Positions 33,736-53,031 of a stretch of DNA of 54,363 nucleotides are shown here, piece after piece; position 1 is the first letter of the stretch; every line of letters begins with the position of its first letter. The DNA is taken from contig RHCX01000002.1 in NCBI GenBank assembly GCA_010028495.1, positions 1 through 54,363 on the forward strand, read 5' to 3'. The DNA comes from Nitrososphaeria archaeon (GTDB taxonomy: Archaea; Thermoproteota; Nitrososphaeria; Nitrososphaerales; Nitrosopumilaceae). Made by a program: the position numbers and the translations under genes. The notes below the pieces were generated by a model that did no database searches, had not been told where the DNA came from, and saw only the letters and a program-made list of their open reading frames with translations.

Positions 33736-36051
33736 TTAACTAATCTTATGCATTGGAATCAAATCCTTTGCAAACTGTTTGAGTGATTCTGGAATTTCTA
33801 TCGATATTGAATCCTTCAACGACAAGCCTTTTGATTTCTTTTCATTCCAGACTTTGGAATTGAATTCTTCAATTTCTTTAGTAAATTGACTCATATCTGG
33901 CAGATTTTCTGGTCTTGGATGTTTTTGCTTGTGAATTGTCTCTTTGGAGTATAGTTCCTGCCATAGATGATCAGTGCTAAATGGAGAAATTGGTGCAAGC
34001 AAAACAAGAATTGTAGACAAAACCTTGTGCAAAGTGTGGATTGCAGCATTTTTCTCTGATTCTGTAAATCCGTCTCCATACGCACGAGCTTTTACCATCT
34101 CGATATAATGGGCAGCAAAGAGATTCCATGTGAACTCGCGAATAGCTATTGCAGGCACAAAAAAGTTGTATTCTGAATAGCCTTTTTGGCATTCTGCTAC
34201 AACTCGGTCAAGCTCCGATAGAATCCACCTGTCTGTTGCAGTAGGTTCTGCTTTTTCAATAATTGGATAGCTAGAGATGAATCTAGAAACATTCCATAAT
34301 TTGGATAAGAATTTCTTGGTCGCCTCTATTTTTTGCTCTGAACACCTAAAGTCATAACCGTGGTTGATCTCCGATGCGCTCCAGAATCGAAAAGTATCTG
34401 CACCAAACTTTTCAATTATTGGCAATGGATCAACTGCGTTTCCTTTACTTTTTGACATTTTCATTCCTTTTTCGTCAAGACCGTATCCCATAATCCAAGC
34501 CTCAGACCATGGACTGGTACCAGTCAGCTGTTCACATCGAAGAATTGTATAGTATAACCAAGTTCGGACAATGTCTTTGGCCTGTGGTCTGAGTGTTGCA
34601 GGATATGTCTTTTTGAAAAATTCCTGATCCTTGTTGTACTGTGAAATAAACAACGGAGATACTGATGAATCCATCCAAGTGTCAAATGTTCTAGTCTCGC
34701 CAACAAATTCTTTGGCGCCACATTTTGTACATTTATCGAATGGTGCAGGATCTGTCCATGGCTTGTAATATTTTCCTGGTACCGGTACATGCGGTTCAGA
34801 GCAGCTCTTGCAGTACCAGATTGGAATCTCTGTACCGTAGTATCTGCGTCGAGATATTGGCCAGTCAATTGAAATTGAATCCAGCCAGTTCATCAGAATT
34901 TGTTTGTGCATGTCAGGATGAAATGTTATTTTTTGTCCAATATCACGAATTTTTTCAATTGAATCCATTTGCTTTACGTAATATTCCTCCATTGGTATGA
35001 TCTCAATTGGAATCTTGCTGCGCTCAGAAACAGGTGTTCTGTGCGTAATTTCCTCGATTTTTTCTACCAGTCCTGCATTTTGCAAGTCTTCGATGATCTG
35101 ATTTCGAGCCTGCTTTACCTTCAGGCCAGCATATTTTCCAGCAGACTCTGTCATAAGACCATTCATTCCAATTGCAACAATTTCTTCTAGTTTCATTTCT
35201 CGGAACAATGCAACGTCGTTTTGATCACCATACGAGCAGACCATCACTGCACCGGAACCAAACTCCATCTGTGCAGAGTGGTGTGTTCGAATAGTTACTT
35301 CTCTGTTTATTACCGGCACGATGATTTTCTTATCTATAACATCGCTGTATCTGGAATCATCTGGATTTACTATAACAGTCTGACATGCACAAAGCAATTC
35401 AGGTCTTGTACTAGCTATGATAATTTCTCTGTCAGAGTCTTTGATTTTGAATTTCATGTAAACTAGCTTGGTTGGAATGTCTTGATATTGGATTTCTGCA
35501 TCTGCTATTGTAGTTCCAGAAACCCAGTCGTAGTTGTTTGGGCGAGTTGCCTTGTAGACTGTTCCACGTTTCCACAATTCAATAAATGTGGATTGTGTAA
35601 GGGTACGATATTCTTCAGAATCAGTCCTGTAATAATTGGCAAAGTTACCTGACAGCCCAAGACTTTTCATTATCTGTAGCATTTCTGCTTCTAGATCATC
35701 CAGTGAACTCTTGCACAATTCCAAGAACTTACTTCGTTCAGTTTCTTGCATGCGAATGTTGTGTTTTTTTTCAGTGTACAATTCCACCGGCAGACCGTTT
35801 CTGTCTATTCCAATTGGAAAATACACGTGATTCCCGTTCATTCTTGCAGTTCGAGCAATCATGTCTATCTGGGAATAATGAGCCGCAGCTCCAATATGCC
35901 AAGGCCTTCCAGATGGATATGGTGGAGGTGTATCTATGACAAAATTCTTGTTTTCAGGCACAAATTTGTATAATCCAGAGTCAACCCATTGCTTGAGTAT
36001 CTTTGCTTCAAGCTCTGGATTCCATGCAGTTTCTTTGATTGTTGGTTCCAT
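33736..36051 (-). CDS. valS: Valyl-tRNA synthetase
   Basis: 771 residues, class I synthetase of the Ile/Leu/Val group. The signature is FVIDTPPPYPSGRPWHIG (HIGH motif) and GMKMSKSKGNAVDP (KMSKS), with editing-domain segments in between (ASTRPELLCACQTV) and FDTWMDSSVSPL. The PPPYPSGRPWHIGAA opening and the WASE-like motif FWSASEIN point to ValRS of archaeal type. It charges tRNA-Val. Length is short but within the archaeal range. Confidence 0.9.
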   Translation of the reverse strand: MEPTIKETAWNPELEAKILKQWVDSGLYKFVPENKNFVIDTPPPYPSGRPWHIGAAAHYSQIDMIARTARMNGNHVYFPIGIDRNGLPVELYTEKKHNIRMQETERSKFLELCKSSLDDLEAEMLQIMKSLGLSGNFANYYRTDSEEYRTLTQSTFIELWKRGTVYKATRPNNYDWVSGTTIADAEIQYQDIPTKLVYMKFKIKDSDREIIIASTRPELLCACQTVIVNPDDSRYSDVIDKKIIVPVINREVTIRTHHSAQMEFGSGAVMVCSYGDQNDVALFREMKLEEIVAIGMNGLMTESAGKYAGLKVKQARNQIIEDLQNAGLVEKIEEITHRTPVSERSKIPIEIIPMEEYYVKQMDSIEKIRDIGQKITFHPDMHKQILMNWLDSISIDWPISRRRYYGTEIPIWYCKSCSEPHVPVPGKYYKPWTDPAPFDKCTKCGAKEFVGETRTFDTWMDSSVSPLFISQYNKDQEFFKKTYPATLRPQAKDIVRTWLYYTILRCEQLTGTSPWSEAWIMGYGLDEKGMKMSKSKGNAVDPLPIIEKFGADTFRFWSASEINHGYDFRCSEQKIEATKKFLSKLWNVSRFISSYPIIEKAEPTATDRWILSELDRVVAECQKGYSEYNFFVPAIAIREFTWNLFAAHYIEMVKARAYGDGFTESEKNAAIHTLHKVLSTILVLLAPISPFSTDHLWQELYSKETIHKQKHPRPENLPDMSQFTKEIEEFNSKVWNEKKSKGLSLKDSISIEIPESLKQFAKDLIPMHKIS

Positions 36052-36056
36052 GGTAC

Positions 36057-36878
36057 TTATGACTTTGAAATCTTGGAAATCAGATGTGCTCCCTTGTTAT
36101 AGCCTTCGTAAATGTAAACGCCAACTGCTTCAATATTTTTTGGAAGCTTGGGCACTAGAAGCTTGATTATTTCAGTGGATAGGTTTTCTACTGTTGCCTC
36201 GCCTTCTAGGAGAAACGTAGTGTGCTTTGGTACCTGCATATCAAACATTCCTTTTGGACCTTCAAACGTTATTCTGTAATGCGATTGGTCTTCTGTTTTG
36301 AGATATTTTCTGTTGATAAAGAACTTGTGATCCAAAATTCCAATTACCTCTTTGATTATTCTTTTTGCCTCGCCAAAGTCAACTAGCAAATTATTTGTCA
36401 TATCTCCTACTAGTTCCACCAGAACCGTAGATGTATGTCCGTGTAGAATAGAGCATTTTTCTACCAGTGGTAAAATATGAGCATAATCAAATGCAAACGA
36501 TGGATCTTCGATGAATATGGATCCAGATTGAGCATCTTTGGTATCATAGAATACAATTTCATCCAATTCTTTGAGTTTAGCTGCGAATTGCGGATGGCCG
36601 ATTGCCATGATATTGTGCTTGTCGGATTTTATCTCCTTGTATTTTGAAATATCGGATTCGGAATCAATTACCTCGATTAACTTTCCATCGCTGGTTTTGA
36701 AATCAACCAGAACGATTTTTCCGTTGGATAATGTCAGATTGTGTTGGTATTCATAGGATAATCCCAAAAATGACATCATTTGTGCAATTGACAGCTCGGT
36801 TCTTGACTTTAGCAGAGTGCCGTTTTTGTCAATGTATCTGAAATCAGAGTCAAGTATGGTGGAATTGGTCAGTGTCAT
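36057..36878 (-). CDS. PD-(D/E)XK-like domain fused to a QueD-type 6-pyruvoyl-tetrahydropterin synthase
   Basis: 273 residues from ATG 36878, 20-25 bases after a TATA-like GATTATATAG. The C-terminal half (about 125-273) is a PTPS/QueD fold: FAFDYAHIL, KCSILHGHTSTVLVEL (zinc histidines HGH and the QueD-type cysteine in CxxLHGH), LLVDFGEAKRIIKEV, ILDHKFF and a closing EGEATVENLSTE with the catalytic Glu. The N-terminal half (about 15-120) has SRTELSIAQMMSFLGLSYEY, VLVDFK and KLIEVIDSE, spaced like a PD-(D/E)XK nuclease core (E...VDF...EV). The enzyme would make 6-carboxytetrahydropterin for archaeosine. The fusion is unusual. The next gene encodes a pterin dehydratase. Confidence 0.75.
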   Translation of the reverse strand: MTLTNSTILDSDFRYIDKNGTLLKSRTELSIAQMMSFLGLSYEYQHNLTLSNGKIVLVDFKTSDGKLIEVIDSESDISKYKEIKSDKHNIMAIGHPQFAAKLKELDEIVFYDTKDAQSGSIFIEDPSFAFDYAHILPLVEKCSILHGHTSTVLVELVGDMTNNLLVDFGEAKRIIKEVIGILDHKFFINRKYLKTEDQSHYRITFEGPKGMFDMQVPKHTTFLLEGEATVENLSTEIIKLLVPKLPKNIEAVGVYIYEGYNKGAHLISKISKS

Positions 36879-36928: not shown

Positions 36929-37192
36929 CTAGATTACAGACTCGATGAACTTGGCAAGCTCTACATCGTTTGATGTTATGCCTCCGGCATCATGGGTCAT
37001 CAGGTCTATTGTTACTCTGTTATACACATTGAACCATTCTGGATGATGATTCATCTTTTCTGCGTGTAGTGCTACTTTGGTCATAAATGAAAATGCCTCG
37101 GAAAAATCTGCAAATATTAATTCTCGATGCAATTTGCCGTTCTTTATTGTCCATCTTGGAAGTTCTTGTTTAATTTGATCTTCGGATATCAA
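36929..37192 (-). CDS. Pterin-4a-carbinolamine dehydratase
   Basis: 87 residues, TTG start with a TATA-like AATTATTAATTATAC about 25 bases upstream. It has the family pattern: [20 protein letters not shown], then [20 protein letters not shown] with the catalytic His-His-Pro-Glu-W segment, and [20 protein letters not shown]. It dehydrates 4a-hydroxytetrahydropterin. No aromatic amino-acid hydroxylase is seen nearby. Its gene precedes the QueD-type fusion on the same strand, separated by 50 bases. Confidence 0.92.
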
Positions 37193-37226: not shown

Positions 37227-38198
37227 TTAGGACTCGAAGTACTTTAACACTGAATCCAGATCAGTTGCTTCCACAACCTTCATTCCGTATTTTTCCTCTA
37301 GTACTGGTGAAAGATCTTTTGGCGCAGATTTACAGTTTCTAAAGTAAAATGCACCTTCCTTTTTCTCTGTGCATTCTTGAACAAATGTAGTTGCCTCGCC
37401 TTTTGGTACAATGAATGTTTTTGCGCCGTATTTTCCAGCTGCCTCTGCTTTTTGTGGAACCCCTCCTACAGGACCTATCGTTCCATCTGGCTGTATTGTA
37501 CCAGTTAACAGTATTGTATCATTGATTGGTTTGTCTTGAATCTCCATTACTAGTAAAACAGTCATTGCCATTCCGGCACTTGGACCGTCAACTGTTTGTA
37601 ATTCATTTTCATTTTTTGATGAAATTGAAAATATCACATCCTTGTTTGACAAATCCGAGTTTGTGTAGCGTTCTGCTACCTTGACTGCTGTCTTTGCGGA
37701 TGTCTGAAAGTCTACACCTGTAGGCGTTTGCGTATTGACTAGGACAAGACCTGTGCCATCTTTGATGTCTACTTTGATGTTCATTGCAGTTCCCTCATAC
37801 TGTACATCTTGGAAAAATCCATCAGACACCATTATTGGACGTACGGCAACTGCCGTGATTGTCTTGCTGGATGATGATATTGTAACTGGTGCTTGTTTTT
37901 CTTCCAGCTTTGCCTTGAGTCTTGTAATTTCTTGCTCTTGATTTTTTATTATATCTGACTGATCTGTGAGACTGTCAGACTGTTTTTGTAAAGAGTCTGT
38001 TTGTTGGTTTAATGAAGAGATTTCCCTGTGCAAGAGATTAACGTGATCATATAACAAATAATTCCCTGCTAGTGATACGGCAAGCACAATTCCGAGTGTT
38101 ATCGGGATTTTTCTCTGCAACAAGTAGATTTTTTGCCATTTTGTATTTGATATTTGCTGTTCATTGTTCAGTAACTCTTTGTATGGGAGTGGAATCAT
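37227..38198 (-). CDS. Membrane-anchored Lon-like serine protease
   Basis: 323 residues from ATG 38198. One membrane helix near the N-terminus ([18 protein letters not shown]), a coiled coil (about 60-105, [18 protein letters not shown]), then a Lon (S16) protease domain. That domain has [13 protein letters not shown] with the catalytic Ser, [20 protein letters not shown] with the Lys of the Ser-Lys dyad, and [11 protein letters not shown]. The AAA+ ATPase module is absent, so it is not the classical archaeal LonB; it is probably an ATP-independent, surface-facing protease. The N-terminus abuts the divergent asparagine-synthase-like gene. Confidence 0.8.
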
Positions 38199-38205
38199 AC
38201 CGGTA

Positions 38206-38955
38206 ATGCAATTGGATACTCTGCATGAGCAAATCAAAAATGCCATCTCAAATACAGTCCCTGAGAAAAAAATCGGCATTGCGTTTTCTGGTGGTGTTGA
38301 TAGTACCCTGATTGCTGTACTGTGCAACAACCTGGATTATGACATTACTTTACTTACAATTGGCTTTGAGGGCTCACACGATATCAATTTTGCAAAACAA
38401 GTAAACGAATTTTTGAAATTACCGCACAAAATCCTGGAGATAAATCCAAATGAATTTGATTCTATTTCAAAAAAGATTCACACCACAATAAACACGGATA
38501 ATCTATCTTGGAATGAGAACAGCATCGCGTTTTATCATGTATCAAAATTAGCGCAAAGCCTTGGGCTGAATACTGTGGTCACAGCAAATGGAATTGACGA
38601 GCTATTTTGCGGATACAATGGATACCGAGACGCGATAAAGCAAGGAAATGACGCAGTGATGGAGTTGATGGCTACCAAGCTAGACAACGAAGTCCAGATG
38701 ATGAGGGCAATAAACGGGATCTGCTCTGAATTTAGAGTCAAAATTGTACAGCCGTTACTCTCAGAAGAGTTTGTTAAATTTGCCAAAACCATACCTATAG
38801 ATCAAAAGATTATCGGTGAAAATGATCTGCAAAGAAAGCATATCATTCGAAAGCTGGCATTGCAAGTGGGAGTTCCTGAATTATCTGCAAATGCAAGAAA
38901 AAAAGCACTGCAATACGGTTCTTTGATTCACAAAGCACTGTTAAAATCTAGATAA
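38206..38955 (+). CDS. Asparagine synthase-like PP-loop protein without glutaminase domain
   Basis: 249 residues from ATG 38206. It has the PP-loop KIGIAFSGGVDSTLIAVLCN (SGGVDS) and the synthase-domain features TVVTANGIDELFCGYNGYRD (GxDELF), and a C-terminal helix region (RKHIIRKLALQVGVPE). The N-terminal glutaminase domain of AsnB is missing, so it would use free ammonia, fitting for an ammonia-rich cell, or make another amide. Only seven bases separate it from the divergent Lon-like start, and its 3' end overlaps purB by eight bases. Confidence 0.8.
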   Translation: MQLDTLHEQIKNAISNTVPEKKIGIAFSGGVDSTLIAVLCNNLDYDITLLTIGFEGSHDINFAKQVNEFLKLPHKILEINPNEFDSISKKIHTTINTDNLSWNENSIAFYHVSKLAQSLGLNTVVTANGIDELFCGYNGYRDAIKQGNDAVMELMATKLDNEVQMMRAINGICSEFRVKIVQPLLSEEFVKFAKTIPIDQKIIGENDLQRKHIIRKLALQVGVPELSANARKKALQYGSLIHKALLKSR

Positions 38956-48458: not shown

Positions 48459-50213
48459 TTACAATAAACTGTTGACTAGCTTTTTGATGTTCTCTATTTC
48501 CTCTTCTTCTTGGCGTATTTTTTTGTCAAGCACACGAAGCATCGCTTCATTCCAGACGCGATGTGAGAAAAAATTATGCTTGGTGTTTGCTAACTCGATT
48601 TCATCTTCTACTACGGTGTCTTCTAGGAATCTTGTCACTACTCCGTCTGTTAGCCGCAAGATTCGCTCGTTGAGCTTGTGGCTTTTGAAGATTGGCTCTA
48701 TTTTGGAAATGTCTTCTTTATAGTCGGTTTTAGTTCCAAGAATGCTCTTGTGAATTATTCTAAAATACACTGCAAGATAGAACAGTGTAGCATATCTTTT
48801 GGTCTTGTGACCTCCACGCTTTCCATATCCTAGAGATTTTTTTGCATATTCTTTTACCAAATATGGATAGAGAAGCAACCTATAGTCATCCTTAAGATTT
48901 TCATTAAACACGTCATCGTATTTGCTTCCACGCGGCAAAAATTGCGCAGGCGAACTATATGATTCTGTGGGTCTTTGCTCGATTCCTGCAACCAAAGATT
49001 GGATTGCATCCTTTGCAACTATTACTTTTTTGTGATTATCAGGTAGATATCGATTGTATGTGGTGTCGCCCTTGAACTCGGTCTGCTGTGATTTTGTCTT
49101 GCTATCAAACGAGCCTGCCTGAATTTCATAGAAGTATCCCTGATTTTCAAGCTGGGACTTGACTGATTTGTGAAAGTCCATAAGAGAAACCAAGTCCTTT
49201 CCTCGGACAGAGTTTTGCGAGTTTCTGTATTTTGTGATATTATTCTGATCTTGCTCGTCATCTGCTTTGATTATTGTAACTGTGATACTGCCGTCCAGAT
49301 TGTTGGTCCTTTTTGCATGATCTAAAATAGAATTTGATGTCTGAGCGCCGTTGACTATTTGCGGCGCGTGCAACATGATGTTGTTGTCTTCTAGCTCCTC
49401 AAAGTTGCTAACTACTATGGTGATTCCGTTGTTGTAGTAAAAGAACTTGTCAGGCGAGTTCTGCAATGTATCACGAATCCCCTTGTTTACGTTTGTCTTG
49501 AACTGCATCCATTGTCGAATGTTTGACTCAAAGACATAGTCGCGATTTTTAGTAACGAAGTCGGTCAGCTCACGTAACCGCAGTATTCCGACTACGGTAT
49601 TTTTGTACTTGATTCTCTCCTCTAGATGAATTCTGGATTTTTTGCCAGCTGCTGGCTTTTTTATTCGGTCCCAGAGATTTTTCACTATCTTGTTGATGTC
49701 CATTATTTCCACCATGTCATCGCCATCATAATCGACTGGCTGGTTTGTGACGTAGCAGCATTCGACTTTGAGGTTTTTCTCCTGAATCTTTGTAACCAGA
49801 TTTGCAAGCTCTGGCCTCATTTTGGTGATATCTTTGCTCAATAGACGTCTGACATCTTCTTTGAATTTGGCAATTGCCTCCTCAGAATGAGCAGTGCCAT
49901 ACTTTGATTGGAATAATCGTATCTTGTTATCGGAAAAGTCCACTGGTAAATATGCATCAATTCCAAGATCGTTTGCGCCATCCACTATAGAGTCTGCCGC
50001 ATCGTCTTCTGTTGCCTCATAAACTCGAGTCAAAACCCAGTGCAGAAAATTATATCCTTTTTCTACGTCACTTTTTGCACTTTCGGCGTATTCTGTAATG
50101 CTGTCTTTGATGTTCTCAGAGAATCCTTCCAGTGGCTGTTCTGATTTTTTCTGAATCAATAACGACTGCGAACCAGGAATGTATTCTAGCAAACCGTTGC
50201 TTCTCTCTGCCAT
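48459..50213 (-). CDS. AIPR-family (abortive infection) phage resistance protein
   Basis: 584 residues. The AIPR core is clear: FFYYNNGITIVVSNFEELED and APQIVNGAQTSNSIL, followed by ITKYRNSQNSVRGKDLVSLM. Near the N-terminus DGANDLGIDAYLP and IRLFQSKYG resemble a PD-(D/E)XK (GxDA ... QxK) nuclease. AIPR proteins are linked to phage abortive infection, often with restriction systems. No methylase or helicase is adjacent. ATG start about 25 bases from CTAAATAC. It is divergent from a cupredoxin gene. It is the only clear defence gene in the window. Confidence 0.88.
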   Translation of the reverse strand: MAERSNGLLEYIPGSQSLLIQKKSEQPLEGFSENIKDSITEYAESAKSDVEKGYNFLHWVLTRVYEATEDDAADSIVDGANDLGIDAYLPVDFSDNKIRLFQSKYGTAHSEEAIAKFKEDVRRLLSKDITKMRPELANLVTKIQEKNLKVECCYVTNQPVDYDGDDMVEIMDINKIVKNLWDRIKKPAAGKKSRIHLEERIKYKNTVVGILRLRELTDFVTKNRDYVFESNIRQWMQFKTNVNKGIRDTLQNSPDKFFYYNNGITIVVSNFEELEDNNIMLHAPQIVNGAQTSNSILDHAKRTNNLDGSITVTIIKADDEQDQNNITKYRNSQNSVRGKDLVSLMDFHKSVKSQLENQGYFYEIQAGSFDSKTKSQQTEFKGDTTYNRYLPDNHKKVIVAKDAIQSLVAGIEQRPTESYSSPAQFLPRGSKYDDVFNENLKDDYRLLLYPYLVKEYAKKSLGYGKRGGHKTKRYATLFYLAVYFRIIHKSILGTKTDYKEDISKIEPIFKSHKLNERILRLTDGVVTRFLEDTVVEDEIELANTKHNFFSHRVWNEAMLRVLDKKIRQEEEEIENIKKLVNSLL

Positions 50214-50709: not shown

Positions 50710-50710
50710 G

Positions 50711-50782
50711 AGGTGAGGAAGGGATTTGAACCCCTATAGATTCGCTTTGCAGGCGAACGCATAGCCGCTCTGCCACCTCACC
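50711..50782 (-). tRNA. tRNA-Cys(GCA)
   Basis: Minus strand: acceptor GGTGAGG/CCTCACC with discriminator U as expected for Cys, D-arm GGCAGAGCGGCTATGC, anticodon arm TTCGC-CTGCAAA-GCGAA (anticodon GCA), T-arm AGGGGTTCAAATCCCTT. 72 nt, intronless. Confidence 0.95.
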
Positions 50783-52260: not shown

Positions 52261-53031
52261 ATGATTTCAATCAAGCTTTTAGGTGGCGCAAAAAAGTCGT
52301 TTGGTAAAGATAGCCTTCAGGCAGACTTTGATAGTGTAACAATCTCAAAATTATTGGAATACCTACTGTCGATAAAACCGGAAAACACGTTAGACCTTGA
52401 TACAAAAAATATCCTAATTGCAGTAAATGGCGCAGACTCGTCTGCTCTGCAAGGACATGATACCGTACTAAAATCCGGTGATGTCATTACAATAATTCCT
52501 GTGATCCATGGCGGTGCAAGACTGCAGTTTTCTATTGGCTCCAAAACAGGAGAGTTATTCAATATAAAACACAAAAAAGGAGAAAACTATGATTTTTTGG
52601 CATCTCTAAGAAAAAAATTCCCAAAAATAATCATGGAAGGCATTTCGTCAAACAGTATATCTAGCGTTTTGCATGCAAAAAAGATAGCATCTCTGTCGCT
52701 TTATGCACAAAAAAATAATCTTCTCTTGGCAAAAAAGCTGGAATCTGACATTTTGCTTCGATTTGCGGCAACTACGCAAATATCTGCTGCAATCAAAACA
52801 GTCGGAATAGAACAATCAGATAATTTTACCATAGTTGCAATAGGAACAAAATCCGCATTAAACTCGTTAAACAAGGCTCTATCGGATGGTATAGTGTTTG
52901 TCAAGTATTCGGATAACGCAAAACACATCCAAAAACAATTTGGAATAACAAAAAAACATTTGGATGTAATAGATTCCAAAACTCCACTAGAAGATTTGCT
53001 TGCAGAAAAGGCAGCTATACTATTCCAATGA
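52261..53031 (+). CDS. MoaD/ThiS (SAMP)-like domain fused to KEOPS subunit Cgi121
   Basis: 256 residues. Residues 1-85 are a ubiquitin-like MoaD/ThiS domain (MISIKLLGGAKKSFGKDSLQ, IAVNGADSS, VLKSGDVITIIPVIHGG) that ends in the Gly-Gly pair at 84-85. Residues 88-256 are a Cgi121 fold: SSVLHAKKIASLSLYAQK, LESDILLRFAATTQISAAIK and VGIEQSDNFTIVAIG match the archaeal protein's HA...A, R...QI..AI core. Cgi121 binds the tRNA in KEOPS for t6A synthesis. The Gly-Gly is followed by ARLQF, so it could be processed or stay fused. Confidence 0.82.
   Translation: MISIKLLGGAKKSFGKDSLQADFDSVTISKLLEYLLSIKPENTLDLDTKNILIAVNGADSSALQGHDTVLKSGDVITIIPVIHGGARLQFSIGSKTGELFNIKHKKGENYDFLASLRKKFPKIIMEGISSNSISSVLHAKKIASLSLYAQKNNLLLAKKLESDILLRFAATTQISAAIKTVGIEQSDNFTIVAIGTKSALNSLNKALSDGIVFVKYSDNAKHIQKQFGITKKHLDVIDSKTPLEDLLAEKAAILFQ

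Follow-up and report, generated by a model that had tools for sequence, protein, structure and literature searches.

The window analysed in this study is a stretch of 54,363 nucleotides from an ammonia-oxidising archaeon of the Nitrososphaeria, whose assembly comprises 1.63 Mb in 203 contigs. On its minus strand, positions 36,057 to 36,878 (ATG start at 36,878) encode a protein of 273 aa in which a PD-(D/E)XK-like domain is fused to the N-terminus of a QueD. The N-terminal domain (residues ~10-112; 36,543-36,851), recognised by AlphaFold modelling, Foldseek, hhalign and residue conservation, has a degenerate active site. It is followed by a linker (residues ~109-117; 36,528-36,554) that is modelled with low confidence (pLDDT < 50 for residues 109-112), and by a QueD/PTPS domain of the long type (36,072-36,521), all on the minus strand. 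The orientation of the N-terminal domain relative to the QueD half is uncertain in the AlphaFold model (pTM 0.57). Conservation is uneven, with a mean column entropy of 1.47 bits in the N-terminal domain and 0.75 bits in the QueD half. The two-domain layout is common to ~120 fetched loci (38-94% identity) and to every ammonia-oxidiser lineage sampled, and thus a chance open reading frame or a one-off fusion is ruled out. Relatives in the public records belong to Nitrosotenuis, Nitrosotalea, Nitrosopumilus and other Nitrososphaerota. Literature searches returned no published description of a fusion of QueD with a nuclease fold; with its predicted PD-(D/E)XK-fold domain, the protein is a known enzyme in a new domain arrangement.

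The fused gene is surrounded by housekeeping genes (LeuRS, PurB, RtcB and PdxT). The leucyl-tRNA synthetase gene (33,736-36,051, minus strand; identified by sequence and synteny) lies directly downstream, and a pterin-4a-carbinolamine dehydratase homologue (36,929-37,192, minus strand; PF01329, 1.3e-32) is the conserved upstream neighbour in Nitrosopumilaceae. An asparagine-synthetase-like PP-loop ATPase that has no glutaminase domain (38,164-38,955, plus strand; PF00733, 2.1e-26, and synteny) shows weak similarity to QueC and is transcribed divergently from the fused gene in most ammonia oxidisers; it might catalyse an amidation step that is not yet known. Elsewhere in the window, an AIPR abortive-infection-type protein (48,459-50,213, minus strand), possibly an integrated defence gene, is encoded beside a tRNA-Cys gene (50,710-50,782), and a ThiS-type ubiquitin-like domain is fused to a CGI-121 (KEOPS subunit) domain (52,261-53,031, plus strand).

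The QueD half and the preQ0/archaeosine pathway

The C-terminal half had been predicted to be a complete QueD with a CxxLHGH motif, and this was borne out. PF01242 (PTPS) covers residues 128-264 (4.1e-17; 62.7 bits, Pfam cut-off 22.4), profile searches of the PDB matched Pyrococcus PH0634 and E. coli QueD, and the Foldseek results agree with this assignment. The signature CSILHGH (36,435-36,455, minus strand), with the nucleophile C142 and the zinc ligands H146 and H148, is present in 131 of 131 aligned rows. Likewise, H134, C142, H146, H148, D183, H184 and E258 are invariant in all 131 aligned relatives, and the catalytic and zinc residues line up with those of E. coli QueD (4ntm) and PH0634 (2dj6). 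PTPS types are told apart by motif, and CxxxHGH is the PTPS-I signature (PMC5041015). C142-SIL-HGH fits this signature and neither that of PTPS-II nor that of PTPS-III: CxxxxxHGH is not matched, and the ExxHGH motif of PTPS-III and PTPS-I-III hybrids is absent, with an invariant serine 143 at the position of the glutamate. The protein scores 55.6 bits against the cut-off of 89.25 of the NCBIfam QueD equivalog TIGR03367, because it is of a divergent long type in which a long extra beta hairpin (residues ~190-224) splits the match.

The original prediction had also pointed to archaeosine synthesis and to QueE, QueC and ArcTGT as genes to look for, and the genome supports this link. Another contig (C184; locus L144) carries QueC and FolE side by side with the end of QueE, QueE itself being split by contig ends, and a single tRNA-guanine transglycosylase (TGT) match was found on contig C58. 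Thus, FolE, QueE, QueC and TGT occur in the same genome as the fused gene, and a second PTPS homologue was not found in the 1.63 Mb assembly. QueC directly follows the fused QueD in nine genomes of deeper Nitrososphaeria, and in some deeper lineages it sits between the fused gene and leucyl-tRNA synthetase. Long-type QueDs of other classes have QueC directly downstream at 15 of 20 loci, often overlapping, and one genome (G422) carries QueD, QueE and QueC consecutively. In Nitrosopumilaceae, the QueC copy beside the fused gene is gone, leucyl-tRNA synthetase adjoins and the pterin dehydratase lies upstream.

This last gene could suggest that the fused enzyme, as a PTPS-III or PTPS-VI type, serves folate or pterin-cofactor synthesis instead of preQ0 synthesis. 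The dehydratase does adjoin the fused gene here, as noted originally, but this adjacency is a trait of one family and not of the whole lineage; in deeper lineages the neighbour is QueC. Moreover, the motif is CxxxHGH with a serine, not a glutamate, ahead of xxHGH, and the genome that holds QueE and QueC has no other QueD. We therefore regard a folate or pterin-cofactor role as highly improbable. Since the fused protein is the sole PTPS, bears the PTPS-I motif, occurs together with FolE, QueE, QueC and TGT, and is adjacent to QueC in deeper lineages, it is almost certainly the predicted 6-carboxytetrahydropterin synthase of the preQ0/archaeosine route. With this assignment, the ambiguous annotation of the "6-pyruvoyl tetrahydropterin synthase" type in ammonia-oxidiser genomes is fixed as a preQ0 step.

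In the proposed pathway, FolE would convert GTP to dihydroneopterin triphosphate, from which the T-fold domain of the C-terminal half, binding zinc through H134, H146 and H148, is predicted to form CPH4. Catalysis would be carried out by C142 together with D183 and H184. QueE and QueC would then yield preQ0, which tRNA-guanine transglycosylase would insert into tRNA. For the step from preQ0-tRNA to archaeosine, a QueF-like protein was not found in the genomes of the host group that were examined; the PF14489 (QueF) matches near QueC that were examined turned out to be FolE cross-matches.

A role in DNA modification or defence, which had been raised as well, is not supported. Such a role was looked for as a DpdA-type TGT paralogue together with defence neighbours; there is one TGT match, the neighbours of the fused gene are housekeeping genes, and searches of phage records and of viral contigs returned no relative of the fused protein.

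Fold, ancestry and active site of the N-terminal domain

PD-(D/E)XK-like spacing had been proposed for the first ~110 residues, and E28 in helix A, D59-F60 in a strand and E69 in the next strand agree with it. The AlphaFold model of the domain is compact (pLDDT 79, and about 90-95 across residues 20-90) and consists of a helix (26-38), three strands (42-49, 55-62 and 67-71), a helix (74-85) and a strand (90-94). The domain models thus show the alpha-beta-beta-beta-alpha-beta core of the PD-(D/E)XK fold, with TM values of 0.4-0.55 to the Foldseek matches. The best PDB match is the nuclease Bax1 (7.8e-4, prob 1.00), followed among the leading matches by AbaSI, R2 endonuclease, DrdV, AF1548 and XisH, with VRR_NUC, lambda exonuclease and T7 endonuclease I lower in the list. 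The leading matches, which we take to be PD-(D/E)XK proteins from their descriptions and general knowledge, belong predominantly to this superfamily; their E-values are modest (best 7.8e-4), but the consistency of the matches is informative.

Independently of the fold search, a profile search, as had been suggested for this region, connected it with two RecD-like helicases of other archaea (1160 and 1174 aa; L141 and L143), which match residues 11-52. In hhalign, the fused family aligned with the C-terminal nuclease domains of these helicases with 94% probability (E 1.6e-7, 36 columns). Pfam gave no above-cut-off match in the first 110 residues of the host protein and only noise for the N-terminal domains of 38 members, and a PDB sequence search with the domain profile returned zero matches even at E 10. 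The fold assignment therefore comes only from Foldseek and the match to the helicases, the PDB sequence and Pfam searches being uninformative. By prediction, the domain has a PD-(D/E)XK fold, and its ~110 residues probably derive from a nuclease domain like those that end some archaeal helicases. A PriA_3primeBD match (0.028) was dropped; it lies under the cut-off and is absent from other members. The QueD of the QueD-QueE-QueC operon in G422 (L180, 1767-2759, minus strand) carries an N-terminal extension of ~165 residues with a similar order of elements by eye, but profile comparison did not support kinship.

The three acids are kept in most relatives. In an alignment of 132 rows that contains near-duplicates, the motif I acid E28 (36,795-36,797) is E in 122 (otherwise G, K, Q, D or H), the motif II acid D59 (36,702-36,704) is D in 125 and the motif III acid E69 (36,672-36,674) is E in 118. 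The motif II aspartate and the motif III glutamate are thus present in the host protein and in most relatives. The lysine of (D/E)xK is not: the host protein reads E69-V70-I71, and at the expected lysine position, I71 (36,666-36,668; all codons on the minus strand), all rows that have a residue show I, V, Y or A and never K. Furthermore, the acids are lost in several lineages. Three Nitrososphaera-group sequences have G, D and K at the positions of E28, D59 and E69, and replacements elsewhere give K, D, Q (L151), E, N, Q (L026) and E, N, V (L008). In the basal lineages f10, f11, f14 and f17 one to three acids are gone, and the active site is lost in the remnants of the domain found in another class (G231, G219 and G124). 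The original prediction had made conservation of the catalytic residues a check; it held for the acids in most relatives and failed for the lysine in all of them.

Two well-conserved lysines in the helix after the E69 strand, K79 and K84, might in principle take the place of the motif III lysine. Since the triad is kept in ~90% of sequences, a residual metal-binding or catalytic site may persist in the majority of relatives. It could accordingly be asked whether most ammonia oxidisers have a working nuclease or nickase in this domain, its lysine being shifted to K79/K84 and the QueD half tying the nuclease to nucleic acid marked with 7-deazaguanine. In a non-redundant set, E28, D59, E69 and K79/K84 belong to the better conserved polar positions of the domain, and the related helicase domains likewise read E-H-L-G and not E-x-K. 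However, Nitrososphaera, some Nitrosopumilaceae and all basal lineages have lost acids while the QueD half stays intact, other long-type QueDs carry an eroded domain or none, and defence or DNA-modification neighbours are absent. A working nuclease thus appears very improbable. Because the motif III lysine is never present and the acids were lost in several lineages, nuclease activity is, judging from the sequences, presumably not the conserved function of the domain.

In a further proposal, the domain would bind tRNA or some other nucleic acid but not cut it, and would replace the PUA domain that is missing from thaumarchaeal tRNA-guanine transglycosylase (PMC6790972). Nuclease folds do bind nucleic acid, and a PUA match was also not found in the TGT here. 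Yet the mean net charge of the domain is -2.5, with positive values in only 4 of 38 relatives. In addition, the substrate of QueD is a free pterin, a small molecule several steps ahead of tRNA. A PUA match was absent from TGT in genomes with the fused QueD and equally in genomes with a short QueD (G034 and G044), and therefore the domain is not tied to the loss of PUA; the comparison of fused-QueD and short-QueD genomes did not support it as a stand-in. The original suggestion that the nuclease-like partner recruits the nucleic acid for modification consequently gained no positive support, and we consider nucleic-acid binding improbable.

Distribution and proposed role of the fused QueD

Of 61 related genomes, 42 carry the fused QueD, in part as copies cut by contig ends, and a search of 398 genomes of the phylum recovered it in the ammonia-oxidiser families sampled, with the exception of G034. 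Outside QueD, the N-terminal domain was seen in these 398 genomes only as the two weak helicase matches. In the QueD tree, the fused proteins form a clade (support 99) whose internal branching fits vertical descent. In long-type QueDs of other archaeal classes the domain is missing or present as remnants only. A short QueD occurs in 5 of the 61 genomes (G034, G040, G044, G051 and G058) and never together with the fused form (0/61; Fisher p 0.002, kinship ignored), and therefore it likely does the same job. In G034, a member of Nitrosopumilaceae in which a profile search detected no N-terminal domain, the fused QueD and the QueE of the lineage have both been swapped for canonical versions while FolE and QueC_A were retained (L122, L146, L193; QueE tree). 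The pairing is not strict, since G046 and G049 combine a fused QueD with a canonical QueE in the QueE tree.

In one otherwise good genome (G423; L150) the fused gene is interrupted by several stops, a pseudogene or a sequencing error. In G045 (a complete genome), G039, G041 and G055, QueC is present and QueD unrecognisable, with QueE also found in the last three; these organisms may form CPH4 by other means.

Taken together, the protein is probably a QueD of the preQ0/archaeosine pathway whose degenerate nuclease-fold domain acts in cis as a structural module that does not cut. The basis of this explanation is computed: the predicted fold, residue conservation, pathway gene content and the occurrence of the domain in cis only. 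The motif III lysine is gone family-wide and the metal-binding acids appear to have been lost again and again, and we infer that the domain lacks nuclease activity. By elimination, it would serve as a scaffold that most likely helps to assemble the QueD oligomer or to dock a pathway partner. The "degenerate helper" of the original prediction is the version that fits the missing lysine, the repeated loss of acids and the restriction of the domain to QueD. It is rather unlikely, though conceivable, that in most ammonia oxidisers the domain keeps a working metal- or ligand-binding site and controls or channels 7-deazaguanine synthesis, for instance by gripping QueE, QueC or a nucleotide signal. 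If this were true, the fact that G034 exchanged both QueD and QueE would be the trace of a matched pair.

Ammonia-oxidising archaea rank with the most abundant microbes on Earth, and the N-terminal domain rides on the QueD of nearly every ammonia-oxidiser lineage sampled. A restriction-enzyme fold has long been kept inside a small-molecule enzyme, and its active site decays at rates that differ by lineage. This provides a clean natural series for asking why an apparently dead nuclease is kept, and a small, testable case of a worn-out nuclease as helper.

Comparison with known systems

Compared with QueD/PTPS-I (COG0720; E. coli 4ntk/4ntm, Pyrococcus PH0634 2dj6), the fused protein shares the T-fold, the zinc histidines, the catalytic Cys and Asp-His pair, the CxxxHGH motif and the gene neighbourhood with QueC and QueE. 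It differs by ~110 additional N-terminal residues and the long beta-hairpin insertion, and it scores under the NCBIfam QueD cut-off. The short archaeal QueDs share PF01242 and the C-x3-HGH motif, but they are 116-151 aa long, have no N-terminal domain and form a separate clade (support 100). With the PD-(D/E)XK superfamily (nearest in fold, Bax1 6p4o/8gy8 and AbaSI 4par; nearest in sequence, the C-terminal domains of the RecD-like helicases), the N-terminal domain shares helix A with its E, the beta hairpin YEY followed by D-F, the E-bearing strand and the next helix and strand. At the positions of DF and EVI in the fused family, the helicase-borne domains read PDF and EHLG. Unlike these nucleases, the fused family has no motif III lysine and has repeatedly lost the acids, and its domain is joined to a pterin enzyme and not to a helicase or a DNA-binding domain.
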